Source of the DNA: Daphnia pulex
Taxonomy: Eukaryota > Arthropoda > Branchiopoda > Diplostraca > Daphniidae
Direction: 5' to 3'
Assembly (NCBI RefSeq): GCF_021134715.1
Contig: NC_060022.1
Location: forward strand, 811,001-875,000
DNA length: 64,000 nt
The notes beneath the pieces were generated by a model that was not told the origin of the DNA, did not search any database, and saw only the letters and a list, made by a program, of their open reading frames with translations. A program made the position numbers and the translations under genes. This document shows positions 4,001 to 63,754 of this stretch, one piece after another. Every line of letters starts with the position of its first letter. Within the stretch, counting starts at the first letter, position 1.

Positions 4001-7000
4001 GCGAGCACACCAAAGCGCTGCAGTACCACCAACTCGATCTTCGGCTGGCCGAAGAGACGGGCTCGTCGGGCGGACAGTGCCGGGCCTACGGCAACCTGGG
4101 AGCCACCCAGGAATCGCTGGGCCGGCTGGACGAAGCCGTCCACTGTCAGGAGCAGCACTTGAGCATGGCGGCTCAGATCAACGACAAGGTGGCCAAAACC
4201 AAAGCCTTTGCCAGTTTGGGCCGGCTTCACCACGGGTTGGGGAATCCCAGCCAGGCCGTTGCGTACCTCCAGCAGGGCCTGCAGATCTCGGAGGCCCTGA
4301 GTCTGCGCGAGGAAGAAGCCCGGATCCGTCACCGGTTGGGACTGGCCCTTTGGGGCTCGGGTGATCTGGACGGCACCCAGGTGCACATGGAACGAGCAGC
4401 CGGACTCCTAGAGGCCGTCAGGCGGGAAGCCCGGGGTAGTGCCGACTACCGGCTCTCACTCTTCGACCTGCAGACGGCCTGCTATCAAATCCTGCAGCGA
4501 GTCCTGGTCGATCTGGGCCGCTCTAGCGAGGCCTTGCTTGTCGCCGAGCGCGGACGGACCCGGGCCTTTGTCGACCTGCTCCTGGAGCGCCAGGGGGCGG
4601 CCACCAGCGACGCTGAAACACGTGGCAGTCACGGCCGCGTGGCCCTTTTCGACGACTCTCTGCCCACCAGCGTCGAGCAAATTATGGAAATCGTCAACAA
4701 GCAGAAAGCGTCCGTCCTCTACTACAGTCTGGCGGCCGGCTACCTCTACTGCTGGCTCATCGTTCCCACCAAAGGTGTGGTGGCCTTCCATCAAGCGGCC
4801 ATCAATCCGGACGGAGGAGTCAACGGCAACGGAAGAAGCGGAGAGTCGAGTTCCGATTCCGGCAGCGCCCGAGTGGCGTCGCCGGACGATGAGAACCAAG
4901 TGCAGAAAGGCGAGGGCAATTTGCTGGACCAGTACATCCAGGGCATTCGCGAGGCCCTGGGAGTCGAGTGGCAATCGACGGGCAACGGCGGCGGCGGTGG
5001 GCGGGAGGACAACAACGGCGACTTGGAGGATCTCTGGTCGCAGCATTTGGGCGAGCTGGGCGACAAATTGAATCAGGAAGGAGATCGTTCCGGCTTTTTG
5101 CGGATGGTCAACCGCTCGCACGCCTTCAACAGCAGCAACTACAGTTTGTCCAGCTTGTTCAGCCTGGGCAGCGTGTCCATCAACAGCGGGCAGAGTCAGC
5201 TGTCGTCCGTCTCCAGGCCGGGCAGTTTGCGCCACTCGCGGCGAAGCCTTTGGCAAGGGCCGGCCTGTCTCCGCTCCCTCTACGATCTGCTCCTGGCGCC
5301 CGTCGAGGATCGGCTGACCCAGTACGGGCAGTCGCCGCTCTCGGCCAGCTCTACCTCGCGGGAATTGGTCCTGGTGCTGGACGGCGACCTCTACCTGGTC
5401 CCGTTCGCCCTCCTCAAACCGCAGAGCAGCAACGACTACCTGTGCGAGCGGTTCAGTCTCATCGTCAGTCCGTCTCTGACGTCGCTGCGAACCGGGCAGA
5501 AGAGCGCCAGTCGCAGCAACAAGCTCCTGCAGATGCACCAGGCCCGTTCGCTGACGAGTCCGCTGACGGCCGTTTCGCTCTCGACCTACTCGTCGGCCAT
5601 GGGCGGCGGCGTCGAGTCGCTGGAACAGCAGCCGGCCACTTCGGCCCTGGTTATCGGCAACCCCAAGATGAGCCAGTCGGTGGTGGAGCAGTGGGGCTGG
5701 ACGGACATTCCCTACGCCGAGCAGGAGGCTCTCGTCGTGGCCGAAATGTTGCAGACGCCTTCGCTGCTGGCCGGAGCGGCGGCCACCAAGGACGCCGTCC
5801 TCCGTCACTTGTCGCAAGTCGAGTGCATCCACTTTGCCACTCACGTCTCGTGGAAAATGTCGGCCATCGTTTTGGCGCCGTCGATGGTGGACGGACTGGC
5901 CGCCAGCGACGGCGACGGGGCCAGCACGACGGGCAGCACTCGCCCGTCTCTCCACCAGCAAGACAACGACGACATCAAATCGGTGGCGTCGGGAGTGGCT
6001 CCGTCTTCGTCGGCCGCGACGGCCGACTTGCCGGCCTTGTCGGAATTCCTCCTGACGGCCGCCGACATCCTCAACCTGCGTCTCTGCGCCCGTCTGGTGG
6101 TGGTCAGTTCTGTCCACACTCGAGACCATCACGGCGTGGCCCATTCGGACGGAGTCGTCGGCTTGACTCGGGCCTTGCTGGCCGCCGGTGCCCAATCAGT
6201 TCTGGTTTCTCTATGGCCCGTCCCGGACACGGCCGTCAAGATTTTCATGAGAACTTTTTACTCTTCCCTCTTGCAGGTACCAATTTTGAATTGAATTGAA
6301 TTGATTTAACCGGATGAGGTAATTAATCTTTGATTTCTATAGGGAGCGAGGGCTAGCCGGGCGTTGTCGGAAGCCCAGCAGACTGTCCAGCACACGAAAC
6401 ACTTTGCCCACCCGGCCAATTGGGCCGGCTTCGTCTTGGTGGGAGCTGACGTGAGGCTGTCGAACAAAGTGGCTCTGATGGGCCAAGCGCTGACGGAACT
6501 GCTCAAGACGCCGGACAAGTGCCGGGACGCTTTGCGGGTAACTCTGCACTTGGTTGAAAAGTCGCTGCAGCGGATCCACCGCGGCTATCGCAACGCCATG
6601 TACACGACCCAGCGCAGCATTGAGAACAAGGTCGGCCCAGTCGGCGGCTGGAAGGAGCTGCTCATCTCGGTCGGGTTCCGATTCGAGCCGGCCGCCAACA
6701 ACATTCCGGCCTCCGTCTTTTTCCCGCAGAGCGATCCCGGCGAGCGACTGACTCAGTGCTCGGCCAGCCTCCAGGCTCTGCTGGGATTGACCACGCCTTC
6801 CCTGCTGGCCATCTCCAAATTGCTGGCTAGCTCGGAGGCTTCGACCGACGACATCACGGCCGTTCTGCGCAACGCCACCGTCCAGCTGGGACTGCGAGAC
6901 CTCGAGAGCGAAAGCGTCGACATTCCCGTTCCGGTCAAATTGTGGCGCCTGCCGGGCTGTCACGAATTGTTGGCCTCGCTCGGCTTCGATCTGATGGAGG

Positions 7001-9519
7001 TCGGACGCAACGAGGTGACGCTCAGGACGGGCAAGCTGGCCAACAAACGCAACATCCAGTTCGCCCTTCAGGCCCTGCTGGCCCTCTTTGGTAAGTCCCG
7101 CTCTGCGGAATTTTACATTCCATCCATCCATTCATCCATCCATCCATCCATCCGAAAGAGCGATTTATTAATTGGCCCGTTTCGGTTAGAAACTTTAGAT
7201 TCGCCCACCAGTTTATCGCTGGAATCGTCGAGTTCCGTCGAGAGTCTGACATCCGACGAGGAAGAAGAGGAGCAAGAACAGGACGGAGTGGCCGGCAATC
7301 AGCGCAACGTCGTCTCGAATCGATCGGGTCGATCGGCTCCGTCGATCGTTGGCGGCGGCGGCGGAGGAGGATCTGGCAACGCCAGCGGAGCCGGCCGAGT
7401 CGCAACGGGCAGCCATCAAACCTATTCCAGTTTGGTGTCTCGCCGGATGCCGCTGTCGGCCAGCGTCAAATCGGCTTTCAGCAGCTACGTCCGCAGCGGC
7501 TGCCGGGGCGAACCTGACGGGCGGACGGCCGTCGGAGGCGATTCCCGCGGCCGGGAAAGTGACGCCGCTTTTACTCCCAGTCCCGTCGATCCTGTACATC
7601 GCACAAGTAAAAAATGAAATGATTTGACTTTGAATAAGAACCTTCCGGCTAACTGGATAACTTTGATTACAGGCATGGGTCATAGGGGAGGACAAGGCGG
7701 AATCGCTGGTCTGTTGGCCGGCATGTCGAGCAGCGCTGGCAGTGATCGAGGAGTTCCGGTGCCCAGTCTGCGCATGTCGCTGACGTTGGCCCACCAGTCG
7801 AAAATCCGTTCCATGTACTGCTCGCGCCAGAGTTTGGCGTCGCAGGAGAACAGTTCGCCGGCCAGCGAGATGGGCACTCCATCCATGATGATGCCGAGCA
7901 ACAACCCGTCGCGCCCCGATTCCTCGTCCAGCACCACCAGCTCGGCCGACTGGGAGAGCGGCCTGTCGACCGTTCGCCGCCAGCCGCCCATTTCCACCTC
8001 GCTGGGCAAAGCTCCGTCGTCCAACAATCCGCGCAAAGTCGAAGACATTAGCGCCTTCAACGAGTCTCGGCTGAGACTGGACGCCAAAAGTTTCGGCCTC
8101 CACAGCAACAACAACCACAACAACAACAACAACACGATGGCCGACGCCCGATCGCGATCCCGTTTCAAGCCGCCCGGCGGATTTGCTGCCGGACTCAAAC
8201 GACAAATGGCCCTTCACCAATCGGTGGCCGACGACGGCGAGAATTCCGGCGGCAAGACGGGATCGGCCCGGTCTGGCTCGCTGGACACGCTCGACCGTTT
8301 GAGCGTCCGCAGCGAAGTGGCCAAAGCTCCGTCGGCATTCCCGGTGAGCGGGCCGGCCATGCAGCAGCGCCGCCGGCATCGGTCGGTGGAGCGACAGCTG
8401 GACGACGACACGGACTCGGTCGCATGCGACGCTGGCGACGCCGCCCCCGAACGTGATGTTGTGGCCCAGCAGGTGAACGAGCGTTTTTCGGCCGCCGTCT
8501 TCCATCACTCGAAGCCGGGCAAATTGGTGATGGCCAAAGCGGCCGCTGCGGCCACGACGAGGACCCTGCACAAGAGCGGCGCCACTCGCCCGTCTGTGAT
8601 GATGAGCCAGCGACCGGTCGATCACAATTGCCCGTCGGATCACGAAATGGACGCCTCGAGCGTCATTTACTCGCTGCGGCCCGGCGAGTCTGAACTGTCC
8701 AGTGGCGTCCAGCTGTCGCACAACGCCGGGTCGCGCAGCATCCAGGACCACATCATCGCGACGCAAATGAATCGACTCAACCGCGAAATGCCCATCTCGG
8801 ACGTCTACCACGAGCGCAACATGGGACTGGGTCTGGCCCCGCCCCTCTCGGAGCTGCTGGTCAACACCGGCGGCGGCGGCCCCAACGGCCCCAACTCGGC
8901 GGTGGCCGCCGCCGCCACGGGGTCCGGCCTCAGCGTCGCCTCATCCGAGGACGTTTTCAATTCCTTCGATCAAATTTCGCTGGCCGACACGGTGACGGAA
9001 CTGAGCAGCGACAAAGCCTCTGATCCGGCCGCCGCCGCTTCCAATCTGAAGAATCTGGGCTACGCCAAACGACCGCCTCCCCGGCCGGCCAAATTGCCTC
9101 AGCCGTTTGGCTCGTCGTGGGGCCCGTCGAGCGGGGCTTTCCACGCGACGGGACCGCGGCAGCAGCAGCACCAGCGCATCAGCGTGTTCGACACGTCGTC
9201 GCCCGAAGCGGAAATCTCGACCTCATCGTCGGCCAGCACCATGACTTTGCGTCACGGCATTTTGGACATGACGAGACGCGACGAAGCCGACGGCCGCTCC
9301 ATGACCGACTCCAACTACAGCGGCTACTCGCCGCACCGCAACCTCAAGCTGTCGACGGCCATGCCCATGCACCAGCAGCTGCAGCACTCGTCGGGCGGCG
9401 GCCGGCTGGCGGCCGATTCGTCGTCGTCGGCCATCAACAAGGAGAATAAAAGTCACACGATTCACGCGGTGGCCATCATCGAGTCGTCGTGCGACGCCAG
9501 AGCCAACGACGTGGCTTGA
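1058..9519 (+). CDS. TTC28: Tetratricopeptide repeat protein 28-like (TPR + CHAT), 5' partial
   Basis: Seven phase-consistent exons: 1058-1416, 1495-1699, 1846-3396, 3482-6276, 6343-7090, 7190-7606, 7673-9519. They encode about 2,640 residues ending in TGA. Roughly the first 1,000 residues are back-to-back TPR units of about 40 residues with the recurring pattern ALGNLG...A...H, as in vertebrate TTC28. A CHAT (caspase-like) domain follows in the second half of exon 4 and exon 5, with LVLDGDLYLVPFALLK near 5365, CIHFATH near 5824 and LVSLWPVPD near 6205. The last two exons are Ser-, Ala-, Gly- and Asn-rich and probably disordered, including a poly-Asn run near 8103-8134. Vertebrate TTC28 is linked to midbody and mitosis functions; that role here is inference. 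The N-terminus is missing from the window. The CHAT segment lacks an obvious catalytic cysteine. Confidence 0.93.
7113..7154. repeat. CATC tetranucleotide microsatellite in a TTC28 intron
   Basis: About ten imperfect copies of CATC lie between the donor at 7091 and the acceptor ending at 7189. The tract is intronic. Confidence 0.85.
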
Positions 9520-10890
9520 GAAAATTCAACAACAACAGTTGATTGGTTGATTGATAGACACGACTCACTCGACCAAATGAAAAAGAATTTAGAATCAAAG
9601 CTGGTGCCTTATTTTGCCAAATCAATTCCAATTGTCATTTGTAATTTTGTTTTTTTTTCCGCCCCGAATCGTCTTTTTAAAATGTTGTAGAAGATTTGAA
9701 GGTGTACATAGAGTTCCGTTGTTAACTCATTCAATTGCTGCCGACAAGTGTGATGGGCGAGGGTATGTGGTAATTATCATCGAACATGTTCGAGAATTCT
9801 GGGGAAAATAACAGATAATTTATTCTCTTTTGGGTGGGACCCTCGTGTGAAATATGATGCACCTTCGTCTGCTTGCGAGTTGTTTGTTGGCCATTGTATT
9901 TGATTTTGCTAAACTGTTTGCTGTGTGCGATTTCTAATGAGCGCTCTCGATATTATCCTGTTCCCCGTTTTATATGTGAATTGTCTTTTGAGTTACTACA
10001 TCAAAGTATTTGTATGTTTTATTGAATTTGGAATGTAGAACAAATGCCTTGCTATAATAGAAGACTTGTTTTTATTTAATGACGAAGCCGAGTTTGTGTT
10101 GACCGTTTATTCACATCTGGGAAACCAGATTTATTGCCGTTCCATCGGTGAACAATCCTTCTTTTCTAGCGACCGGATAAACGTCGTTTGCTATTTTTTA
10201 TTTTTTAAATGACACAACAATCATCTATAGCCTTTCTTCGAGAACTTATGCTAAAACACGCACGGTGGACGACAGGTAGACGACACTTCCACAAGGGAAA
10301 TGAACTAAATGGTTACAGCTAGATGTCGTTACCATCGCATTGTTTTCTTGTCACAGGGCGGAAAGTTCTGGCTGCTTCTTCCATGTTTCTTCGTTATTTT
10401 CTTGGTGTTTGTGAAATCAATTCTACACCATATCAAATGTAAGTTTCTTGACTGATTCTAGTGCCTCCATAGTTTGATTTGATACGCCTGTGTTGGTTCA
10501 ACTTGAACTTCTAGATTATGTGGCGCTGACTGTTTGATGATTCATAGTTGATTCACATAGAGTTGCAGGAAAACAATGAAATTCTCTTGCTACGTGCAAC
10601 TCGAGCTTTGATTTTTTTTTATGAAAACAAAATTGCCAACAACCCTTCGGGTACCTTGCTGACAGCACACGCAGTGGCGCAGGTAGCTGACATTATCTTA
10701 AGACCACAGTCTGTAAATACTGAGTTTTGAGACGTGCCAAATAGATGGCGTGTTGATTGTGTCAGTCATGGGCTAATGGCGGTTTGCTGTCAAAAGTTAC
10801 GCTATTTTTCTTCGAAAATAAACAAATACCAATGAATTCATAGGTAAATTCGAGTGATTTCGTCTCTAACTTGTCGGTGATGTGTTCTAT
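9520..10890 (+). other. TTC28 3' UTR and downstream intergenic DNA
   Basis: A+T-rich sequence with no supported gene. The first few hundred bases after the TGA at 9517 are presumably 3' UTR. No clear AATAAA was found near the stop, so the transcript end is not placed. Short open frames here show no protein-like character. Confidence 0.5.
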
Positions 10891-35900: not shown

Positions 35901-38900
35901 CTCAAATTCCTTCTGCTGCGTCTGCTGCTAATATAAAAATATGACATGATGGCGGCGAATTTTTGTTTTCGAAAAACAAATTCTCCGATTACCGCGATTC
36001 GAAAAAAAATAGTCTTGGTAATCTAACGTATTTTCTCGTTATTTTCCGTTTCCAGGAATCCTGGCCGTCAGCGCCATCCTGTTTATCGTGATGGGAATTC
36101 TGGTGACGATGTTCTTTTCCCAAATCATCGACAACTTTATTTACAAGGTAAACTTTTAACCCCATTTTAATCAGCTGTTTAATAGTTGGTCGTCTGCTCG
36201 TCTCGGCTCATCTCGCCCACAATGCAAATCAAAACAGGCCACCGACCATTTTTGTTTGCGCAGTGACGTCAGATTCCTTTCGTTTTTTTTGTGTTGCATA
36301 TATTTAATAACAAAAGAGCATTTCGGGTGAGGCAATGGGCCAGCAGCAGAGTGGAGATGCCAAAGAGAAAATAGGTCAACCCAATGTGTGTGTCTGAGCA
36401 CCTACTTTCACTCTCCGTATAGAAACGGAGAAGCTGGGGGAAAGACTTTCTCTGTTTTGGCTTTGGGTGCGACCTTATCAAGTTTTATCGGCCACCAGAT
36501 TCGTTGTTTCGACGAGTTTTCTTTTCTTTTTTAAAACAAGAAAAACCTTTTGGAAATTTTCATCCAGACACGACTTAATGTAAATCACCATGTGGAATTT
36601 CCTGTTGGGATGTCTCGGTTAATATATAAACGTGAGATCAATAATTCAAAGTAATGACAAATATTTGACCTCGTCGGACTTTCCCTTTTTTACTTGCCAT
36701 GCAAAAATGAAATGTCATCGTCATGATTTGGTGCTTTTTCTCGTTTAATAACAGGAGCTAGTCTTGAAAGTTGGAGGCGAAACGTACGAAATGTGGCGCA
36801 AGCCGCCCGTCGAGCCCCAGTTGAAAGTTTATTTCTTCAACGTCACCAATCCGAGGGATTTCCTTCAAGGCGAGAAACCCATTTTTCGCGAAATTGGGCC
36901 TTACGTTTACAAGTAAGTATATTAACCTTTCCTTTTTATTACAATTACAATTATTATTAATTCCCATGGTCCCTGCCTAACCGAACCAAACAGCTGTTGT
37001 TGTTGTTGTGGATGGCAGGACATTGGGAGTTGCACATCACCTTGTAACACACTACAACTATTCCAAGGTCTTATGACTTCTCCCCGGTGGTTTTTTCGTA
37101 ATTTGATCCGACTAAATTCACGAGGAAACTAAGCATATAGCTTGAACGTATCTATCCCGGATTTTCTCTATGCATTTCCACTAAGCGAATCTGAAAAATC
37201 CAGACATTGAAATTTTCTTGGAAATTGCGCAAATGTGATGACGAACCGTCCAGGTGGACGGGAAATCTTATTAACAAAACTTTTCATTTCTTTTTGGTTT
37301 TTTTTTTTTTTAATGGCGTTTCGGTCCATTCCCCACGACATATGGTTGTTGTTGTTAAACACTAGAACCAGAATTGACGGGTTTTCTCTTTTTTATTTTA
37401 TTTTTTTGACAGCGAACGATGGGAGAAGGTTAATTTCACCTGGCATCCAAATGGAACCGTCTCCTATCAGCCGACCAGAACCTTCTTTTTCAACCGGGAA
37501 ATGTCCTATGGTGATGAGTCTGATTTGGTGCAGACACTCAACATTCCACTCGTCGTAAGTTGTTTTTCTTTTTTACCTTCATTATCAACTTGAATAAAGA
37601 AGAAAAAAAAAGAACCTGTCTTGTAATCACATTCTTGTTTTGTTGTACTTTCCATATTATATTTTCTCTTTACGTCTTGATTCTGGTCATACCAGTCTGC
37701 AGCGGATCAAATGAAATACGCCGTCAAGTTGACTCGCCTCGCTCTCGGCTCAATGTTGGGCGTCCTCAATCAAGAGACCTTCACCGTTCGCTCCGTCCGG
37801 GATCTCATGTGGGGCTACAACGACAGCCTCTTCAAGTTGGCCAAGGATGTGATGCCTCCAGAGAACGTCGTGCCCCACGATCTATTTGGCCTTTTTGTTG
37901 GCGTATGTTTCATTCTTTTCTTTTTATCACATTTGTCTTTTCTTTTTCTTTTTAAAAATTTTAACCAACAACGGTTGTTGACATTTTGGTTATTATTTTT
38001 ACAGAAAAACGGGTCGGCCAGCGACGGAGTCTTCACTATTGCGACTGGCGCTAAATCAATGTCCAACTACGCCATCATTGATAATTGGAACGGAATGACC
38101 AAGTTGCCGTTTTGGCAATCCGACCAGTGTAACCGTATCATCGGCACAGACGGAACGGCTTTTCCACCGGAGCTGACGCCCAACACCACACTCCATATGT
38201 TCAATCCCGAACTGTGCCGGGCCATGCCGCTCGTCTACTACAAGGACGTCGTGCACAACGGAGTCGCTGGTGAGTTGTGGCTTGCAACCGCACATCATTA
38301 GAAAAGACAATTTTCTTGACTTCGCGGCTCCGTGCGTTTCTACATCTCATTTGTGTGTGTTCCAAGGTTACCGTTTCGGACCTCCGATCAACGCGTTCGA
38401 CACGCCGGCCACAAATCCCGATAACGCTTGTTTCTGTCCTCCTGGCACGATGGAACGCGATGGCAATTGCGGCATCAAAGGCCTGTTCAACATCAGCTCC
38501 TGCAAATTCGGCGCCCCCATGGCCGTTTCCTGGCCTCATTTCCTTCACGGAGATCCGAAATTAGTCGAAGATGTTGTAGGATTGAATCCAGATATTAATC
38601 GCCACGGATTTTTCTTGGATTTCCAGCCCGTACGTCTATTAGGCACTTGAATTGGTTTAAATACTAATTTTCTTTAAATTTTGGATAGAAATTGACTATC
38701 GCCATGCACGCTACAGCTCGTATGCAGATTAATCTTATGCTGTCCAAGGTAGAAGATATCAAACAGGTGGTTGGACTTCGTGAAATGGCATTTCCGCTCT
38801 TCTGGTTTGAAGATGTAAGTTGTTTCATACATAAAAAAAGGGGAATTTCTACGATATTGATCAATGGCATTTGTTGTTTAGGGTATCGACAAACTGCCAG

Positions 38901-46721: not shown

Positions 46722-49286
46722 TCAGTCAGAGTGATCGTCTTCATCATCGTTTGAATCGTTGAAAGGAAGATCGGGAAGCTGAATGTTGCTCAGCAAGTCA
46801 CGCATGGCCGCCACCAATGTGGCAACGCTCTGTTGAAGATTGGCTCCCGCTCCTTCGGCAGCAATCTCTTCATTTTCTTGCAAATCGACATTGGCACGAG
46901 GAGGTCTGCAACAATTAAACATGTTGAAATAATTTTAAAAAATCAAATAAAATACAAGGCATACCTTCCAGGTTGTCGCTGAACGGCTTGTTGATTATTA
47001 ACAACTTCCTGCGGATTAAAACCGGGTAAGAGTGACCGGAAGAACGAACTGATCAAACCTCCTTCCAACTGGCTGGCGGCTGTGGCATTATTGGTTCGAG
47101 TTGGTCGACTGTAGCTCGAGCTACAGTAATTTTATATAAATTTTATAAATTTATTTAATTTAATAATAATAATTTAATAATTAATAATTTCTATTTTTTA
47201 CTATTACTTACACCGATTCTACAGGCGGTAGAGGATCAAAAGACATGACTGAACCAGCTGCCAGTTCCTGGATGTTTAAACAAGAAATAAATAAGAACGC
47301 TTCTTATTTAGAAAAGTATTTTGAGTTGAACCTGGGGTAGCGTGGCGGTAGCATCTTTGATATCTGACAGGAGAATATGTCGGTAGATATTTCTTGGCGT
47401 TCCTTGGTAGCGCGTTTTACGCTTTTCCTCGTATTCTAGGGCAATCGAAGGCTGGCGATCAACCTCATTTAAACAGCTGTTGGCGTTTCGTTCCAACTAT
47501 AATTTTAGAGTTGGTTGTTAATACAAATTGATTTATGGCAACACATTGTTAAATACCCAAGGAAGGAGTTCAGCATCTTTCCAAAGGTGAAATGAGCGTC
47601 CGATGTACAGTTGAATTAAATTGTTCAACGACGGCGAATGACTACGCATGCAAGCAATTAATACTTGAACGCGAAATATTTTAAACTTGGTTACGTACCT
47701 GAAAGGTGTTTTGGGTGAAAAGTACTCGTGTCTGACTACTCTAACGTCAGCTTGAATGGAGCACTTATCTAACAAAGGAATTAATACTCCTGGGAACATT
47801 AGCAGGGCCTGTTTAAGGTATTCGTCTGCAAGTGGAAGGCTTTTGGGGTCAGTTTTTGAATGGTAGAAGTGGGCCAAAGCAATAGCGAAAGCCATATTAG
47901 GCAGTTGGGACAAATTTTTCTTGGATTCAAAGAATCCAAAAAATTCAATGAACCAAGAATATTCACTGGCTTGAAATAAAGACGTCAAATTAAACGAACG
48001 ATTCTTTTTACATTAAAAAAAATTAAAAAAATGCGTAATACCTTTGATGGCGTAAAAGTCTATCATCAGAATAACTGCCAAGGGATCGGAATCCAAATCC
48101 AATGTATAAAGAAGTTTACAAAATTCCAAAGCAGTTCGGTAACATCCTCGCAAACCGATGGAAACCAAATGTTTGAATATGGCCAAAAATAATGCCCTTG
48201 AAGTAAACCAAATATGTGATTGAAGTGTAGGACAAAAGTCTGAAATAATTATACCTGTTTTCCTGTTGCTTATATTCGAGGCGACAATTTCCGGATGCCA
48301 AATTGAATGAAGGATGAAAAGCACTTTCAAGAATGTATAAGGCTCGCTCGATGAGTTCTCCTGCCATTTGCGGGTCTTCACTCATTCTGCAGATATCAGA
48401 CAGCTGGATCAGCGAGTCTATATGGTATGGATACATATTCACAAGTGCAACAATATTTGTGGGATTCAATGAGCTGACAGCCTCCCAGAAATCGTACTGT
48501 ATTTGACGATACTCTTTGTTGTGCTCATATTTGAAATAGAAACAACCATCCTTTGTTTGATCCAAACTCATTGAAAGTCCTAATATAAAACATGAATTCA
48601 ACATCATATTAAAATTCATAAAAGATCTTTTAACTTCACAACACAAACCTGTTTTTCTTATTTGGGACCAATTGTCTTTGGAATTGATTAGCCATGTTGA
48701 CTTTACATAAGCCCTCCCCCTGGCTTTCTTCTTTTGTGCTGAAACCACCACTCTGCTGCCAAAGATTTTCTTCAGCTCATTGTCAGAATTAAGATTTTTT
48801 TGTTCTAAACTGAGGACATTTTTAGCAGCAACTTGTTTGGAAACTGGCGTCTCATGGCCATTTGAAGGTGCAATATTAACTAGAAATTCATTGTCCAAAT
48901 CATCAGCATCATCATCAAGCTGTGCACTTTGCTTCTTCTTCTTCTTGGTCTTTTTCTTAGGTTTGGTTCCTGTTTGAACTATGTGTGATGTGTCTTCTTC
49001 CGATTCATCAGGAGTGGGTGGTTCTTCGACACTTTCCTTGTCTGAGTCGTCACCTTCATGCAACTAGGAGAGTAAACAGGATGAATTTTGAATCACATTT
49101 ACATGACACGATTATTTTATATACCAAATCAAACATATTGATGGCGGGTTTCTTCTTTCGATTTCCATTGACATTTCTTATGACAGGCGCATCATCAAGC
49201 TCCTCTTCTTCTAGTTGTAGGCTTGATGCCAATGTTGATAACTCATCCTTTTCTCCATGAATTTTGCGAAGCTGTCTATTTGACAT
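46722..49286 (-). CDS. TCF25: TCF25 (Nulp1/Rqc1 family), about 657 aa
   Basis: Ten exons on the minus strand, 5' to 3': 49286-49125, 49063-48649, 48579-48255, 48196-48042, 47969-47699, 47641-47557, 47496-47332, 47267-47212, 47120-46965, 46905-46722. All phases agree. The protein starts MSNRQLRKIHGEKDEL like TCF25 orthologues. It has an acidic stretch followed by a Lys-rich run (KPKKKTKKKKKQ), then the conserved TCF25 region (QIQYDFWEAVSSLNPTNIVAL, YHIDSLIQLSDICRMSEDPQ). It ends in an acidic tail. The length is close to vertebrate TCF25. Family members act in ribosome quality control (yeast Rqc1) and have been described as transcriptional regulators. The donor at exon 8 was placed at GT|GTAAGT because it fixes the phase. 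Confidence 0.94.
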
Positions 49287-52900: not shown

Positions 52901-55900
52901 CGTAGGCCTTTGGGGTACGTCGTCGTCCAAGTAGTCGGAGCACCACCCACCAGCCCTCCCGATGGCGCTACTTGATTGACTACTAACCCCCCTCCAGCCG
53001 ACGCGTCTCCCGACCTTTTTAATGATGGTAAGAGTTGATGTTTTCTCTCTCTCCTTCCCCATGCTGGCGTTTGTTTTGACGATGAGTCAGGCCTCCTCCT
53101 CCCTTTAAATATATTTTCCGGTGGCGTCGTGTGTGTGACGTCATCCTGTGAATGGTATTGATTTATACCCTGCCTCCTCCTCGCAACAGCGACAAAATTT
53201 CCTTGGCCTTGCGCAATGGCGTCCTCACGTGATGAGACTCGCGTGTGTGTTGACATTGCCGACGCCGATCTAAATCGCACGTCAATGAGGAAACGTACTC
53301 GGAAAAAAGTTTCTTTCCCCCGTACAAGGCGTTGGGACGGAGAAATTCCTTTTCTCTCTCTACATGCCCGCCTCTTTGCCCACAGGGTTCATGTTTGACT
53401 GCATTCCTCAACCAACCCAACCAGCCAGCCTCCCTCTTTCTAGTTGGCTTGGCCGAGATACCACCGATTGATCCGTCCCCTCCATATAAAAATAAATAAA
53501 TACTTGACCTAATCGTCTTTGGAAACCCCAGCAAAAATATTTTAAAAGTTCTCAGGTGTCGCTTCTTCCGGTTTCCGTTGTGTGTGTAACGCGAGTCGAC
53601 AGGAACAAGTTTTTTCGGTGCGTCTTTTTGGAGAGAAAAAAGAAAATGGCGCGCGCGCCTCAAGGTGCAAGACCGGAAGTCGAGGATATTCCACGGGTTT
53701 CTCTTCTCTGGTTAAAAAGAAAAAGGGTCACATATATTTTTCAATCGGTTTTTTGGTTAAAATAAATAAAAAAAATTTCGTTGTGGCAGCAGCAGCCATC
53801 TTGAGGTCGCAAGAATGCTTATCTCCTCCGTCTTATATATATATTTTTATGTATGCGAGGAGAGAGAGGAAGCTGTTAGCCATGGGCGCATTCCTGTGAA
53901 CCGAGGGGGGAGAGATGAGCCGAGCAGCTGGAAGGGCCAAATTCTCTTCCGTTGGGTTTGGTGGTGGTGGTAGGCTTACCCCTAAAGCTCTACTCTGCCA
54001 TTGGCTTTGCCACTATTCTCTTACCCGTCGTCGTCTTTCTCCGATTTCAGCATCTTTTTCCCCGTTTCTCCTACAACCCTGACCATCACTACAAGAAAAT
54101 CTTAGGCAATCTTGTTACCTGACGATAATGATAATTTACTTATCTCGGCGACACAAAATGGGGTCCAGGGCTTCCCACGGGTTTTCGGTTTCTTTCCAGT
54201 CATAAAACAAAATGGTCGCCCCCCTCCTCTTCAGTTTTTTGGGAAAAATCAAAAGGGAAATGGCGGACTGGCTACCACCACCTAAACGATGGAATTAATC
54301 AACTTGATTGAGAGTAATGACTGTAATTTCAGCATTTTTCGGATGGTTCGATCGGAAAGCATCAATTAAATAATTTCAATTCCCATTGACAGAATTTTCA
54401 AAAACATGGTTGTGTGTGTGTGTAGGGTGGGGAACGCGTCGCCGCCATTTTGTCGAGCCGTGAAAAACGCGTACAAAATGGCCGCCGACTCCATTTCCCA
54501 AGTTTATACGGCGTGCCGTTCTTCAGAAATTTGACGATTATTTTCAACTGTCGAGCGCTAAAATAATGAATTTCTTTTCAATATCGACGTTGTCATCTGG
54601 ATGCGGGTTGTTGTTTTTTTTCTTCTTCTCCCGAAACCATCTGGCGATCCCGGGGAAAATGCTCTGGCTGGGGTTAAGGACGATCCATCACCTCTTCTTT
54701 CAGCAACAAACAACATGGTGGAAATTTGAAAAAGAGAATTGGGGTGAGAGAGGGGGAGAAAAAGAAAGAAGAGGATTCGTCGTCGAATGATGGGAGGGTG
54801 AGAGTGGGGCCCTTGGGGTAAATATAGAGAAGAGGGGGAACTCACCCTCCGCTTCTTCCCTATTTCGCCCCAAGGCTTCTGCGGAAAAATCAATACTTTG
54901 ACCTCCTCCCCTCTCTACTACGTTCTCCCCCCCTGTCTGTTTGTGCAGCGGCCATAGGTAAAAACTTGAAAAAGTTGTTGGGTTCATCAACAAAAATATA
55001 TATAATACTACTACTACTACCAAGGTAGTAGTAGTTTAAGCGCATAGGAGTTGATCCAATAGAAAACCGAGTAGGTAAACCTATTAGCTCAAATAACCAT
55101 CCGTCGTTTTGGACTTTACCAATCGATATCAGTCGAAATAATTTGGTTGCACGTTCAATTGTTGTAGGAATAGTGTTCATTTGTTGAAAATAATTTCGAA
55201 TCGAAAATGTTTGGCCTATTGGGTGAAATAGCCACCTGAAACGGTTTTGCGCGCCTTTTAATCCTCTGAAAATGCATAGGCCGCCACCTGGTGTGGGGTT
55301 TTGAAACCACTCGGTGCAACCCACCCCGATCGGCCAATAGAAATCGAGCCAAATTACAAATAGAACGGAGAAATAAAATGTCTTCTTCTTCTTAAAATAA
55401 AAAGAAGAAATCAGAGAAATGACTCAATAATAATTCCTTGTCTTGATTTCTATATTTATAACAACACAGGGAGCTGGTGGCGCGTGTGATTTTAGAAACG
55501 CTGCGTTCGATTCCCGTTCCCGATGTTCATCACGACCTACGCCGAGTGTTGGCCATCATCTCACGCCTGGGCGAAGATTCAGGTATGACTGTGGGGACGA
55601 CGACGAAAATGTCTGTGTGTGTGTGTGTCGCCCAAAATAATCATCATTATCATAACAACAATGCGGGGTCGCGATTGGTTCTGGACGGAGACAAGAAGAG
55701 GCTCCCGCTGATGGATGGGTTCCAGAGTGTAGTTAGCATTTCTCTTCCGTCGTTTCAGGCGCGCACGCGTTTCGTGTCAAATCTCCTCCTCGGCCAGTTC
55801 TTTTTTCGAACGACCAAGTGACTGTGTGGTGGAGGGAGACTATTCTTATTTATAGAAAAAAACATCAGGCTAAAGGAGCGCGCGCTCTAGGAGAGATGGA

Positions 55901-58900
55901 TTGGGTAACTGTGTGCTGCTGCTGCTGCTCGACTATTCCGGAATTGGATGCCCTTTGCCAAGATGTTTGGCGGGAGGAGGAGGAGCTTTGGTCCAGTTTG
56001 TGGGTTTCCTTCCTCATTGGTCCAATTCGTTTTTCTCTCTTTTTTTTCCGGGCAGCCACAAGAGTTGATTAGACTCTCCGGAATACAGGAGCAAGGAGCA
56101 GCAGCAACAGCAGTTGTCGCATCGAGAGAAGAAGACGGATGCGCTTCACTGATGCTAATTAAAAAATACCCGAGATTGGGAAGAAGAAGAAGAAGAGGGG
56201 GTGGGGTGAAATAACTTTGAGCTCTCCTACCTAAACCTTATAGATAGATAGTGGCATGCCACCACCACTAGTACACATTTCTTTTCTTGTGTGTGTGTGT
56301 GTGTGTGTGTGTCCCGGAATAAAATTAGTGGGCAAGGATCGTAGAGTGTTTTAGTATCGCTTCCGCGCTCAGTTGCGTCACACCTACACAAAAACTCTCG
56401 TCTCCTTCCTTCCTTCCACTCGGGAGCGCGGACGGCGGCTCCTTCCGCACTCGACAGTTCCGGTCTACCCCAAATGTCGATTCGAGGTTTGATGTGTTGT
56501 TGTTGTTGTTGTTGTTGTGTCATTTTTGGTCGGGTTGGAGGGGGGAGAAAATCGATTTATGCTCCAGTTGTAGTCGTAGTGCGTAAGGAGCCATGTGGCC
56601 GGGTTGAAACGACGTTGTAGTACAGCTGGCCGGCCCTCTTGCGGTCCAGACCAAGTCTCGAGGTATCTCCTGCAAGTTGCAGCAGCCGGGATTGTGTGTG
56701 TCGTTTGCAAGTAGAGATGCGATTGGTCTGGGGAGTGTCGCGCGTGCGGCACTGTTGTTTGAGCTTCGCACGTGCGCTCCAACCCTCCTTCTTCTTCTTC
56801 TCCCCTCTTGCGACGTTCATCCATCAACGAGTCTGCCAATGAGTTGCGTCTCCCATGTTCTCATTATCTCGGCTTCTTGAAGCCACCCTCCTACTCCTAA
56901 TGTCTACCCAAGCGGAAAAGGGTTACGTCTTTGACGTGACCCCCCGGTCGTCGTACTACTCGTAAAAAAGGAAAAATTTCCCCTGCGATGAGCGGAAGTT
57001 CGTTAACGTTGATGAGTGTCGAGAAAAACAGAAAATGGAGGGAAAATGTGTGGCTCAAACTGAGATTTTACTTTTGCAGAGCCTTCAGTTCGGGCTGAGC
57101 TGATGGAGCAGGTGCCCCACGTGGCCATGTATTGCCACGAAGAGAAAGATGAACACCAATGGATGCACTTGGTCCCTTCGTTTTTACTTCCTTTGGTCGT
57201 CCGCTACCTCACCGACGTCAACAATCAGGTTGGGTTTTATTCATTTTGCCTATTTTATTTTTATTTATTTATTCATCGATTGGGTTTATTTTTAATTCAC
57301 GAATGGAATAGGTTCGTAAAACAGCTCAGGCCGCCCTTTTGGTGCTTCTGGAACAAGAACTTGTGGCTCACAACGACGTCGAAGATCAAGTCTGTCCACT
57401 TTTGCTCATGTTGACCAATTCGGACGCTCACGATGATTTCCGAACAGAAGCCGCAGCTGTAAGTGTTCCATCTCTTGTCCTTTAATTCAATTTTGGGGGG
57501 TTCTATGTATAAAATGTGCGTGAAAGGCATCGGCCTGAAAGACATGGGTAGTGAGATGTTGGCCTGGTAGTTCCTCACCTCTCACTACTTTGTCGTTCAT
57601 GTCGTGCACTTTTCCAAATCTTCGCTCATTTTACAATCGCCGTTTCGACCGATTTCGGGCCGTCAGAGTCGACTGGGAAATGCTATCGATACGATGAAGT
57701 TTCCGCGCGAAATTTCAAAAGTCATATCACAGCCAGCTTTGACGAGCCGGATATCGAGTCTCATTCATCTTTCGTCTAAATCAACACGGGGAAATAATAA
57801 TAATTTAATACGAAAAAAAAAAAAGACATTTGACGCAATTGCGCCGCTCGTCGGAAAGGCTGTGGTGTGTTGCCATTTTACAATTTCATATCACAGCCAT
57901 TCTAGATGCGCGGAGCTGCCGGAAGACGCAGAGAAATTATTATTTGAGCATCGAGTTTGGTTTTCGCTACTACGTGCCGCTCGCAAAGTGGCTGTCATGT
58001 GTCCCAATTTCAAGTTCAGCGTTTCATATCACAGCCAGCTTTGATGAGCGGGACGTTTTGTGGCCTTCCTCGGAAAATCCGGTAAATCATCGAGCGGAAG
58101 TGTTGTGTAACTCTTGTTGATTATGTCACTGTTTTTCCAAGGGTGTCGTGTGTATTAGCTTGTCAGAGTGGTTGCGATGTGCGTCATGTTGTACTCGTAT
58201 CACAGCCAGCTTTGATGAGCGCTACGCTCGACTTGTTGCATCAGGAAAATGTTGATTTTAACATGTCACATTGGGGGTTTTTGTCTTTTTAAAATAAAAA
58301 TATAAAGCTCGCCATGTATTATGCTAACTCGGCTGATGTTTGTTTGACACCCCAAAGTTGATGTGTCGGATGGCACCGCTGCTGGGCGGTGACCTGTCGC
58401 GCCGTGTTTTCCTCGAAAGATTTGCCGCTCTGTCGGCAGACGGCCTCTTTCACGTCCGCAAGATCTGCGCTGCCAATTTCGGAGAGTTTTGTGCGGTCGT
58501 CGGTCAAGAGGTCACCGAGTCCATCCTGGTGAGTTTTTTCATTTTTCTTTTATTTTTAATTCTATTCAACCGGAAACGAGATGATGATAATTATTTAAAA
58601 TGTCCTTTTCTCTCTGTTTATAACAGTTGGACAAGTTTTATGCACTGTGCCAAGATGAGCTGTGGGGTGTTCGCAAAGCCTGCGCCGAAGTCTTCATGAG
58701 CCTATCGCGCGTCGTCTCGGCCAGCAAGAGACGCAACGACCTGGGCAGTCTCTTTGTCAACCTCCTTCAAGACGAGTCGCGTTGGGTTCGAATGGCCGCC
58801 TTCCAGGCCCTGGGTCCTTTTATTTCCACCTTTTCACGGATGGAAACGGAACGCGAATCGACTTCGACTTCACTGTCGTCGTCGGCCACGGCCGAAACAG

Positions 58901-60876
58901 CCGAAGCCGAGCCGGTCGAATCGGATTTTAATTCTTTTTATTTCTGGAGAGACCCTCTACCGCAATTGAATTTGATGCCTCCAACCACCAACAACCAAGG
59001 CGATCCGTCGCAGCCTCTTGTCTCATCCGAGGCAGCAAACAACGAAGAGTCGGTCTCGGATAGCGTCGAAAAGGCACTAGAGGATTTGATGGCTCGTGTC
59101 GAGTTGGGCGGTGGAACAACAGCAACAACTATTGAAGCCGCTGCCGCTGCAACAACTCAACCAGCATCCGGTGAACTGGTTCCCGAGCCAGTTCACGCCT
59201 TTGACTTGAGGAGAGTAGCCTGTCAGGAATTATTAGGAGCTCCGGTGGCTGCCAGCAGTGGTAACATCGTTAGCTCACCACCCAATACCGCCGCCGATGA
59301 GGGAACCAACGATTTGTCGGCCGAGTCTAAACCGACGGCCGCCGACGGTTCGGTCCAGCCGACGTTACTCTCGTCTAGTGTCACTACCTCTTTGGCGACC
59401 GTCATGTCGTCGGCTTCGTCTCTGTTTCAACCCAATCTTCTTTTACCACCCGCCTACGTCAAGAGTAACGCCACCACGACGACCAGTGCCAACAGCAGCA
59501 GCAACGACTTGTCCACCACCACCGTCTATTCAAATTCATTTTGCCCCTATTATTCACCGCGACGGCGTTCAGACGGAGGCAGCATGAGCGGCGGTGGCAT
59601 CATCGAGGCCGGCCGCTCACGACCCTACAGTCCCTACGGCTCGTCTTCCAAGCGCTCGTCCATCACCCTCAGTCAATCGGTTGTACCGCAAAATCTGATG
59701 GACTATTACCTGCAGATGACGGACCCTTATTACGTGGAGACGGTCGACGCCGAGATCACTCGCCATTGCGCCTACAGCTTGCCGGCCGTCGTCTGCACGC
59801 TGGGCAAGGAGCACTGGCCGCTGCTGCGCGATCTCTACACGACGCTGGCCTCGGACATGCAGTGGAAGGTGCGCAGGACTCTGGCGTCGAGCATCCACGA
59901 GATTGGCGCCATTTTAGGCCAAGAGGTGGTGACGCAGGACTTGTTGCCCGTCTTTGATGGTTTCATCAAAGACCTGGACGAGGTGCGCGTCGGCGTTTTG
60001 AAGCACTTGAGCGATTTCCTTGGCTTGCTGGCCGAGAAGGAGCGCCGGAGTTATCTGCCTCGCTTGGCCGAGTTCCTCAAGCTGGATAACGAACAGAATT
60101 GGCGCTTCCGTCAAGAGTTGGCCCTGCAACTGCAGTCGGTAGTGGCTCTCTTTTCGCCCGCCGACAGCGCTCAATCCATCTTGCCACTAGCCTTGACTCT
60201 GGCGTCGGATCGCGTAGCCGCCGTCCGTCTCCCTGCCTTCACACTCGTAAGTATTTTGCTTCCATCCATCCGGCCATAGCAGCAACACGATAGACACACA
60301 TTTTTTTAAACTTTGTTCTTCCTTTCAGGTTAGTCAAATAATGAAGCAGGTGTCGGAAAACAGCTGGGCCGACGATGCCGAATCGATGCTCACTCCTCTT
60401 CTTGCCGACCTAACGACCCGTTTCTGCTCCGGCAATCGCTGGATGCTCCGACAGAGCTACGTCAACATCTGCAACCAGCTGGTGACGGACCGCGCTTTGC
60501 CGCTGGAAGAGTTTGGTAAACTTCTTCTGGCACCTTTGCTGGCGCTCAAACAAGACCGCGTGCCCAACGTCCGGCTCGTCTTGGCCAGAGTCATCAATTT
60601 CCAGCTCAAATATCACGGTTAGTATTATTTGTCTTTCAATTGTTTTTTTTTTTTGTTTTCAACACTTGGTGTGTGGTACTACAATGTGTTTGTCTTGAAT
60701 TACCAACAGAGTTTTTCGCTGGATCAGACAGTCCGTACCGGGAATCGCTGGACGAGACGCTCAATCAACTGTCGGCCGATGAGGATCGTGACGTTTCGTA
60801 CTACGCCACAGTCAAACGGAATCAGACGCAAATCAATTCATTGGATCTTCCGACGGAGGACAACAACATTGCGTGA
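49957..60876 (+). CDS. PPP4R1: Protein phosphatase 4 regulatory subunit 1 (PPP4R1), about 947 aa
   Basis: Ten exons: 49957-49963, 50251-50325, 50963-51068, 55470-55582, 57080-57228, 57312-57458, 58358-58528, 58627-60246, 60329-60617, 60710-60876. All phases agree. The first coding exon is only seven bases (ATG GCG G|GTTAGT), giving MADDPPSSSP, similar to the MAD start of vertebrate PPP4R1. Conserved HEAT-repeat blocks include PSVRAELMEQVPHVA, LPLVVRYLTDVNNQVRKTAQ, FHVRKICAANFGEFCAVVG, DELWGVRKACAEVFM and SRWVRMAAFQALGPFISTF. A long Ser/Thr/Ala-rich insert separates the N- and C-terminal HEAT blocks. PPP4R1 scaffolds the PP4 catalytic subunit. The 57459-58357 intron carries microRNA hairpins. 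Confidence 0.94.
52425..52441. repeat. TG dinucleotide microsatellite
   Basis: Uninterrupted GT run in the large PPP4R1 intron. Similar AC and GT tracts occur near 52855 and 52513. Confidence 0.85.
54435..54492. promoter_or_regulatory. Inverted pair of YY1/Pho-like motifs
   Basis: GCCGCCATTTTGT on one side and ACAAAATGGCCGCC on the other form an inverted pair within 58 bp. The core GCCATTTT/AAAATGGC matches the YY1/Pleiohomeotic binding consensus. Other AAATGGC-type sites occur at about 54208, 54259 and 53644. Binding is inference. Confidence 0.35.
55583..57079 (+). other. Fourth intron of PPP4R1
   Basis: No exon supported. It contains a TG microsatellite at 56288-56312 and a TTG trinucleotide run near 56499-56518. 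Confidence 0.55.
56288..56312. repeat. TG dinucleotide microsatellite (about 12 units)
   Basis: Uninterrupted run in a PPP4R1 intron. Confidence 0.9.
57515..57613 (+). ncRNA. mir-71: microRNA precursor mir-71
   Basis: The 5' arm at 57536-57558 begins TGAAAGACATGGGTAGTGAG, the conserved miR-71 sequence. The 3' arm at 57580-57601 begins TCTCACTACTTTGTCG, close to known miR-71-3p, and pairs with the 5' arm through a loop of about 20 nt. It lies on the host strand in the PPP4R1 intron, so it is probably processed from that transcript. miR-71 is found in many protostomes and is absent from vertebrates and Drosophila. Confidence 0.95.
57655..57756 (+). ncRNA. mir-2: microRNA precursor, miR-2 family (copy 1)
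   Basis: The mature-like 3' arm at 57725-57747 begins TATCACAGCCAGCTTTGACG, with the ATCACAG seed intact. A partly complementary 5' arm lies near 57661-57690 (GTCA pairing TGAC, CTGG pairing CCAG). The stem is less regular than in the next copies. Confidence 0.82.
57841..57917 (+). ncRNA. mir-13: microRNA precursor, miR-13-like member of the miR-2 family (copy 2)
   Basis: The 3' arm at 57889-57911 begins TATCACAGCCATTCTAGATG. The 5' arm GGCTGTGGTGTG near 57858-57869 pairs with the seed half, and CCGC/GCGG pair at the base. CCAT after the seed resembles miR-13 more than miR-2. The 3' half is unusual for either. Confidence 0.85.
57973..58055 (+). ncRNA. mir-2: microRNA precursor, miR-2 family (copy 3)
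   Basis: The 3' arm at 58027-58049 begins TATCACAGCCAGCTTTGATG, matching the classical miR-2 sequence. The 5' arm CCGCTCGCAAAGTGGCTGTC near 57978-57997 is almost fully complementary, giving a strong stem. Confidence 0.94.
58146..58228 (+). ncRNA. mir-2: microRNA precursor, miR-2 family (copy 4)
   Basis: The 3' arm at 58198-58220 has the same mature sequence as copy 3 (TATCACAGCCAGCTTTGATG...). The 5' arm around 58158-58182 (GTCAGAGTGGTTGCGATGTG) pairs with G:U and mismatches. About 130 bp separate it from the next PPP4R1 exon. Confidence 0.92.
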
Positions 60877-62433
60877 TAGCCCCAATTCAAAGAATACAAA
60901 CACAAAAAAACTGTACACATTCACACACATTTGATTCTTTTTGCATGATGCCAACACAACGAAAAACAAAACTTGTCGACTCCTCCCTTCCATCCTTTTT
61001 TCCTCCTCACCTCTTCTCTTATCATCTTTGATCTCTTTCGTTTTTTAAATAATCAGCCCCCCCACTAACACAAGGGAGTTCCCCCCTATAAAAAGTCTTG
61101 GCGCGGATGAGTGTTGCTGTGTGGTGCCTTGTACAAACAAGACGATTACCTGTGTGTTGTGTAAGTAAATCACGCAATTGGTGCGGGAGACGAACGCCCC
61201 GATTTAAAAACAAATGAAATTCAAACAAAAATCAATTCATTCATGTTTCCCTCCTTTTTTTAAAAAATAAAAAAGTTTTTCCTTTTTTCTTTTGCAAGTA
61301 AAAAATCGTGTAGAGAGATGGGGGGAGGAGGGATTGTTGTACAAGTTGTTGTCCGCTATGCCCTTACTGTGATGTGGTGGTGACCGCCACCTAACCTGAT
61401 TGGTAGACGGAAAAAAAAATACATCAAAATAATTTTTGCCTACGTGCAACCGCGTTCTTGTCGTTCTTCTTCTTCTTCTGGCCCCAATATCATTTGGCTC
61501 CCGAAATAATGGAAAAAATGTGCTCGCTTGGTTTAATGAAGCCATCGATAAAACAAAAGTGCAAACATCTTAATGAGGTACACACGCGAGTCGAAAAAGA
61601 TTAAAAAACAAGGAGTGGCCCCCGTCTTGTGTGGGTGGGGGAGCTCGTTGTTTACTCGTGTAACAAGAGAAACGGTTCTATATTTATCAAATAAAAAAAG
61701 CTGCAACCATTTTCTTTTTTACCATTGCTCTCTCCCCTCGCCCCTTTTTTTTTAAAGAAACAGAGCCAACAGCTTTGAAAATAGATTTTCCTTAGCTGAT
61801 CGTCAAGACGCGCACTGATGACGACAGACTTTAAGGGAAAAAAAAAGTTATTTTTTTTTTTTAAGGAAAAGTAAAAAAACATGAGACAAATTTTGTGGTT
61901 TTTTCTCCATTTATTTATTTTTTAAACGGAAAGACGATTCCATAGCTTCTTCCGGTTGTACTTGAATTGAAAAAGAACTTTTCCATGGGGTTTCTCACGG
62001 TTTTACGCCCATTAAGCAAGTCAGAAAAAAAGAAAAACCTCCGACACCATCACGGAATGAATAGCTAATAGAATTCATTCAATCACACCAAATTGTGTGA
62101 AAAATGAACTCGCGAGTTTATGTAAATTAAATATCAAAGTGAATAGAGATAATAGCGGGAATAGTTCCGGAGAAGAAGAAACGAATCGAGAGTGGGTGTC
62201 TGCGTACCAATCACGTCAAGGGAGCGACGATTGGCCGAAATATCTTTTCGAGACGATATTTCTATTCGAGCAGAGTTGACTCTGCTGCTGCTGCTGCTGG
62301 CGCGGTGGAGGAAACCCAAGGGAAGGGCTCCAGGTTTATTTCTGTCTTCCGACGACGCAATCACTTGGCTCGGCTAACAGACAGCACAAGCACAAGCTGC
62401 TTCTGTTTGTTGGACAAGTCGAAGCTCGAAAAT
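60877..62433. other. PPP4R1 3' UTR, intergenic DNA and GINS3 upstream region
   Basis: No supported gene. Homopolymer T and A tracts are frequent. The PPP4R1 transcript end is not placed; an AATAAA occurs near 61266. The last part presumably contains the GINS3 promoter. Confidence 0.5.
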
Positions 62434-63754
62434 ATGGCGGCTCCTAGTTTTCGACAAGAGATTACCTGTCTCGGAATCCTTGGCGCAATAACTCGCAAAT
62501 ACATCATTTCTCTCAAGTAATTACGAGCCAGGTGAACGGCTGAACGCGTGACTCAGCTCGCCGTCACACGTAGACCCTTTTTTACGATGAGGTTTTTCGG
62601 GGGAAATAACTTTAACCAAAACCGTCAAGCAATTTGTGGCATAGAGTCGACCATTTTGGGCGTCTTCCCAAAAGAAAAAAGAAAATGTTGACTGTGGATG
62701 ATGTGGCAACGCGGTGCAGAGCGGGAAAACGACTGCTGACATCTCGTTGTGACGATCAAACAACATTGAATTCTAATCTTGTCTTTACAATTTTCTTTTC
62801 ATTCTAATTTTGACTTGTAATCAACTCTTGACGACTTTTATAATGCCTCACTTGCATTTTAGCTATAGTCCAAACTATTTTTCTATAGAAGACATTGTGC
62901 TTCAAGATGTCAGGGTGTCTTGCAAATTCGAAGTGGCTGTTCCCAAGTTAGGTAAACAATAGCTTGTTTATTAGATTTTAAGTTTATTGGTTTTTAAATA
63001 GTTAATCATGTAATTAAGCTGATTACAAAGTTATATCTCCTTTTCTTCCAATTCAGGTATGCTTGATCAGTCGGCTGACGATGAAAACCTCAAACAAGGA
63101 AGCAAAGTAGAATTGCCGTTCTGGATGGTACCCACCCTTCATGCCAAAAAAATTGTAACACTTGAAATTCCAAGGCACTACAAAGTCAATTACAGGTAGT
63201 TAAATATCTTGACAAAGTTTCGTTTTCTGGATTAAATCCAATTTCACTTCCAAATTCTATAGACAGATCCTCCAGGCAGACAGTATAGTTGTTGACCTCC
63301 ACAAATGGGGACCCTATTTCTATGATCTGGGACTTCATGTGGCAAATCTTGAATTAAAGGATTCTCTTGATATCAAGAGGAGCCTGGTTGAGGTTGATTA
63401 CCCAAATTCTGTTTGCATATAACTTTCTCTAACTACTACAAATTTTTGTGTGCAGACCCTTCGTAACCGTTTGAGACAAATTATGGACATGTCTCAACAT
63501 TCCACACACCACGAAACAGTACACATAATTGCAAACTTGGATGAATTAGAAAGAAAGTTGTTTGGAGTGGGTCAGTTGAGTTACAGAAGCTACAAGGTAT
63601 TCATTAATATAGATTTTGATGCATCATTTCTCTATTGTTTTTGTAATCACTTTTGCTTCAATAGGAATGGGTCCGAAGAGAATCCAGCAAGATCAACACA
63701 GCTACTCTAGTAGCCAGTCACAGAAAGAGAAAATTTGCAGAAGTGACTGTTTAA
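62434..63754 (+). CDS. GINS3: GINS complex subunit 3 (Psf3), about 223 aa
   Basis: Six phase-consistent exons: 62434-62516, 62863-62951, 63057-63195, 63263-63392, 63456-63596, 63665-63754. GINS is part of the CMG replicative helicase with Cdc45 and MCM2-7. The Psf3 signature is clear: YSPNYFSIEDIVLQDVRVSC, then FEVAVPKLGMLD, then the helical segment KWGPYFYDLGLHVANLEL. The length is close to vertebrate GINS3 (about 216). The first exon (MAAPSFRQEITCLGILG) gives an N-terminal extension longer than usual. It was chosen because its donor phase (CTCAA|GTAATT) fits; another start is possible. Confidence 0.92.

Follow-up and report, generated by a model that had tools for sequence, protein, structure and literature searches.

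The 64,000-nucleotide stretch of Daphnia pulex DNA analysed here (the window; contig C6, 811001-875000) carries a conserved miR-71/miR-2/miR-13 cluster. It lies in sense orientation in an intron of a gene that is best read as PPP4R1. We consider it probable that the cluster is co-transcribed with this gene and that the nesting dates back to an ancestor shared by Daphnia and the honey bee.

The host intron spans 57459-58357 on the plus strand (899 bases, GT..AG, phase 0), as read from the open frame and the splice dinucleotides. The flanking exons, 57312-57458 and 58358-58528, have exact borders: both are open and in phase 0, with AG/GT on the intron sides. A preliminary description of this DNA, made from the letters alone, had placed a 0.9-kb intron between these two exons, and frame and AG/GT confirm the borders. 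Five hairpins on the same strand lie within the intron, in the order miR-71, miR-2b-type, miR-13-type, miR-2a and miR-2a; by their mature sequences, they comprise one miR-71, three miR-2 and one miR-13 type. The mature motifs are on the plus strand, which places the cluster in sense orientation within a single predicted spliced intron. As expected of a protostome miR-71/miR-2 cluster, a mir-71 hairpin above the Rfam cut-off is followed downstream by mir-2 hairpins on the same strand. The distance from the 5' splice site to the mir-71 precursor (Rfam start 57530) is 71 bases, and the distance from the last hairpin (Rfam end 58224) to the intron end is 133 bases. A mirtron reading was rejected, as the splice sites do not set the hairpin ends.

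With the curated Rfam cut-offs (50 bits for mir-71, RF00832; 45.5 bits for mir-2, RF00047), three matches were found in the whole 64-kb window, all of them in the intron. The mir-71 precursor at 57530-57606 scored 57.8 bits, with its 5p arm from 57536 and its 3p arm from 57580. The two mir-2a-type hairpins scored 52.0 bits (copy 1, 57977-58053, 3p mature from 58027) and 56.1 bits (copy 2, 58156-58224, 3p mature from 58198), and their 3p mature sequences are identical across 23 bases. A lax threshold applied to the intron alone gave 20 Rfam matches, most of them weak. Among these were two plus-strand mir-2 matches below 45.5 bits: 57844-57915 with 42.0 bits and 57663-57742 with 20.6 bits. The mature sequence of the former (from 57889 on the 3p arm, TATCACAGCCATTCTAGATGCG) starts with TATCACAGCCATTCTAGATG, which we take to be the miR-13 type. 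The latter, here called the mir-2b-type hairpin (57645-57763), has its 3p mature sequence from 57725 (TATCACAGCCAGCTTTGACGAGC), which differs by one base from both miR-2a copies over the 23-base mature length.

The folding z-scores were −4.4 for mir-71 (57522-57612), −3.6 for the mir-13 type (57845-57925), −6.8 for the first mir-2a copy (57970-58058) and −4.5 for the second (58145-58232). The length-scaled energy of each hairpin was matched by only one or two of 240 random window stretches of similar G+C. A fold of the entire intron, which had been proposed as a check, gave z = −7.1 (20 shuffles only). The reverse strands fold too, with z-scores of −4.8 for mir-71, −4.7 for the first mir-2a copy, −1.9 for the second and −1.5 for the mir-13 type; the value for mir-71 and that for the first mir-2a copy are significant. 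Hence, the strand was called from the family scores together with the mature motif. On the reverse strand, the Rfam scores fell from 57.8 to 32.8 bits for mir-71 and from 56.1 to 17.3, 52.0 to 22.6 and 42.0 to 18.9 bits for the three better mir-2 matches. For the mir-2b type, the difference is small (20.6 against 18.2 bits), and its strand rests on the mature motif. Rfam scores, folds and mature motifs together bear out the earlier claim of one miR-71 followed by four miR-2/miR-13 hairpins on the host strand. The hairpins were found where they had been located, except that the mir-2b-type stem starts at about 57647, upstream of the core that is easiest to spot by eye.

All four miR-2/13 hairpins start their mature sequence with TATCACAGCCA. 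The window has four copies of this motif, where 0.05 would be expected; all lie in the intron and on the plus strand, and none of 100 shuffles reached four. The motif TATCACAGCCAGCTTTG occurs exactly three times in the 133-Mb genome (133.19 Mb, 13 contigs), each time in the cluster intron. In the genome-wide model searches, mir-71 had one place among the matches listed (best 60 of 15,512 candidates scored), and mir-2 had four (best 60 of 25,338 scored), three in the intron and one on contig C8. As the best 60 candidates were scored and the mir-2b-type copy is not among the matches listed, these searches are not a full census. The C8 match (L008, 1508-1553, within G000 C8:1419779-1419836, reverse strand) scored 40.0 bits, below the cut-off, and on inspection we did not accept it as a miR-2 gene. 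It is a near-perfect palindrome, AAAAATGGCTGTGAGATAC..GTATCTCACAGCCATTTTT, and does not have the miR-2 seed: it reads TATCTCACAGCC, not TATCACAGCC. The mir-2 model also matched below the cut-off in one of 14 control genomes (Caulobacter vibrioides).

The modelled part of the host gene spans 55470-60876 on the plus strand. It consists of seven exons (55470-55582, 57080-57228, 57312-57458, 58358-58528, 58627-60246, 60329-60617 and 60710-60876), with GT..AG at all six introns and a TGA stop. Besides the cluster intron, the introns measure 1497, 83, 98, 82 and 92 bases. The frame is continuous over 884 amino acids, from 55471 to the stop at 60876. The first modelled exon was read from the AG at 55468-55469, and a search by pattern and by a presumed N-terminal stretch for 5' coding exon(s) beyond it gave nothing convincing. 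A 71-residue stretch of the host matched one place in the genome, its own.

The first 264 residues of the host matched PP2A A subunits best in the PDB (best E 7.4e-21), the rest being designed repeat proteins; no entry named PPP4R1 was among these matches. The Pfam families above their cut-offs were HEAT, HEAT_2 and PPP2R1A-like HEAT only. For the PPP2R1A-like HEAT model, two genome places were listed, one on C2 and one on C11, and neither is the host. The C2 gene (L010) resembles the PP2A A subunit when compared by eye with the PDB-matched PP2A A chain, and the C11 match is presumably the splicing factor SF3B1. Taken together, the PP2A-A matches, the HEAT families and the separate C2 gene describe a PP2A-A-like HEAT protein distinct from PPP2R1A. 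Approximate stretches of human PPP4R1 aligned to the host with 57% identity over 263 residues and 50% over 278 residues. Because PPP2R1A is a separate gene and the human PPP4R1 stretches align, we take the host to be PPP4R1, as had been proposed. The frame, the separate PP2A-A gene and the two alignments support this name, which draws partly on approximate sequence.

The linkage of miR-71 and miR-2 was described beforehand as known in protostomes, and the accessible literature agrees (Marco et al. 2013, PMC3763532, and others). Coucheron et al. (2019, PMC6828783) report mir-71, mir-2b, mir-13, mir-2a-1 and mir-2a-2 for D. magna, with sequencing reads from three stages. Their paper names a miR-2/miR-13/miR-71 cluster, states that 13 D. 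magna clusters occur in the same order in D. pulex and notes that miR-2a-1-3p and miR-2a-2-3p are the same in sequence. The Daphnia cluster of that paper shares its five names with the present one, a likeness by names, and our two identical miR-2a copies fit the remark on identical miR-2a-1-3p and miR-2a-2-3p. A host gene for the Daphnia cluster is not named in the accessible text.

For the honey bee, Weaver et al. (2007, PMC2394756) place a single mir-71, a single mir-13a and three mir-2 together in intron 3 of GB15727; they describe this gene for a serine/threonine phosphatase as "lost from Drosophila". Compared by composition and location, the bee cluster has the same five members in a single intron of a gene of serine/threonine phosphatase type. 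It differs in species, and its host is GB15727, which may be PPP4R1. In Drosophila, unlike here, the mir-2/13 genes are split into two clusters without mir-71, mir-13b-1/13a/2c and mir-2a-2/2a-1/2b-2, and miR-71 is lost (Marco et al. 2013, PMC3763532). The cluster has also been reported in Strigamia, Parhyale, chelicerates, the pea aphid and mosquitoes; the accessible parts of these papers name no host gene, and those of the lepidopteran and silkworm papers give no cluster host. PPP4R1 as a host of the miR-71/miR-2/miR-13 cluster was not found in the literature searched, which included few subscription papers. The two papers with both miR-71 and PPP4R1 were on other subjects, judged by their listing, and GB15727 was found in the bee paper (PMC2394756) only.

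Expression data for the cluster members come from the D. magna counts in PMC6828783. From juvenile to subadult, all five members drop by a log2 of −0.65 to −0.82, with a spread of 0.063. Only 11 of 200,000 random quintets from 66 D. magna miRNAs matched this spread. Because Coucheron et al. (2019, PMC6828783) divided reads equally between mir-2a-1-3p and mir-2a-2-3p, these two profiles are not independent. The triple of mir-71, mir-2b and mir-13 is unaffected by this, and its tightness in the same step was matched by 153 of 45,760 triples. Taken across both stage steps, the members were less tight (as tight in 4,079 of 200,000 quintets and 6,682 of 45,760 triples); in adults, mir-13 shows a steep drop and mir-2a-2 an increase, which accounts for the looser fit. 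The D. magna profiles thus moderately support members that move together, as expected of a shared transcript; they have no bearing on the host mRNA.

A shared transcript could also arise from a promoter of the cluster's own. The cluster would then lie in the PPP4R1 intron but be driven mainly from the upstream 1.5-kb intron or nearby, and the strand would be shared by history rather than for co-expression. We regard this as unlikely, though it deserves to be taken seriously. The intron at 55583-57079 has 1,497 bases, far above the four introns of 82-98 bases, and could offer room for such a promoter. The cluster intron itself offers little, with just the 71 bases ahead of mir-71. These contain a single TATA-like word, at 57508, and a start about 30 bases past it would fall in the mir-71 5' arm, so that an intact mir-71 primary transcript would hardly be possible.

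Two further alternatives concern the parts of the arrangement, and both appear very improbable to us. Some of the five hairpins may be decayed copies from which no miRNA is made here, and the mir-2b type, the weakest by family score, would be the obvious case. Its Rfam score barely exceeds that of its reverse strand, and its short cut (57663-57763) folds no better than shuffles (z = −0.1; 86 of 200 shuffles fold equally well). A cut at 57635-57775 reached z = −2.3 (3 of 200 shuffles), and the cut at 57645-57763, with −43.9 kcal/mol, reached z = −4.0 (0 of 200), against −2.3 for the reverse strand of a longer cut. The hairpin has a long stem that fits the Rfam mir-2 model poorly. Its mature sequence, one base from the miR-2a type, also speaks against decay, and so does D. 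magna mir-2b, for which PMC6828783 gives 48,232 juvenile reads, making it more abundant than any other of the five members. Judging by the member names and identities, D. magna mir-2b would be the counterpart of this copy. The other alternative is that the host is a different PP2A-A-like HEAT protein. Such a host would fit the top PDB matches, which are PP2A A subunits with none named PPP4R1, and the HEAT-type families in Pfam. Against it stand the PP2A-A-like gene on C2, assigned by eye, and the identities to the approximate human PPP4R1 stretches.

The mir-2b-type hairpin is also of interest for annotation. The Rfam mir-2 model alone would miss this member, the likely D. magna counterpart of which is abundant.

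If, as we prefer, the cluster is co-transcribed with PPP4R1, the intron would be transcribed as part of the PPP4R1 pre-mRNA. Drosha would then excise the five hairpins from the intron, and the exons would be joined into the PPP4R1 mRNA. The miR-2/13 family acts on K-box targets. The four miR-2/13 members, with one common seed, would repress such targets, and miR-71 would add a second seed. It is plausible that the location in PPP4R1 ties expression of the cluster to its host, as was suggested from the sequence.

We also looked for sites of the cluster's miRNAs in the 2 kb past the host stop codon. One miR-2/13 7-mer site was present there, CTGTGAT at 61367, and no miR-71-5p 7-mer was found in this stretch. 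The chance of such a miR-2/13 site is about 5% (274 of 5,000 simulated 824-base sequences). The host mRNA may already stop short of the site, as there is an AATAAA at 61266. Self-targeting of the host mRNA is possible if the 3'UTR reaches 61367, and is mentioned here as a lead only.

Several other features were seen in the window. Downstream of the host, the neighbouring gene (62843-63754, plus strand) encodes PSF3, a subunit of the GINS complex; its manually joined exons scored 55.7 bits for Pfam PSF3_N and 43.9 bits for Sld5. The region 1695-9519 on the plus strand is rich in G+C (0.58-0.64 in 2001-10000) and contains four long open frames. The one that was tested, 3406-6291 on the plus strand, encodes a TPR and CHAT-domain protein (Pfam CHAT 171.8 bits) that we presume to be TTC28-like. 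A CD36-family coding stretch (Pfam 142.9 bits) lies at 37681-38298 on the plus strand, and a TCF25 coding stretch (132.7 bits) at 48119-49063 on the minus strand.

The arrangement as such is largely known, as far as the accessible literature goes: the cluster is catalogued in Daphnia, and nesting in a phosphatase gene has been described in the honey bee since 2007. What is new is the assignment of the cluster host in a crustacean, which is best read as PPP4R1. As a finding in a single genome, this is ordinary. The PPP4R1 host here and the phosphatase-gene host in the bee suggest a shared ancestral host, with bee GB15727 as a candidate PPP4R1.

One could go further and assume that the cluster already lay in PPP4R1 in the common ancestor of crustaceans and bees, if not earlier. 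In the fly lineage, PPP4R1 would then have been lost, which took this host away and went along with the disappearance of miR-71 and the dispersal of miR-2. We put this forward tentatively and with less than even confidence. If true, what became of this microRNA cluster would have followed the loss of the gene that hosted it. Why flies lost miR-71 could be approached by comparing lineages that kept PPP4R1 with lineages that lost it. If the bee host is PPP4R1, the nesting has persisted from the time when branchiopods and insects diverged, and this would argue that the position of the cluster matters for its expression.
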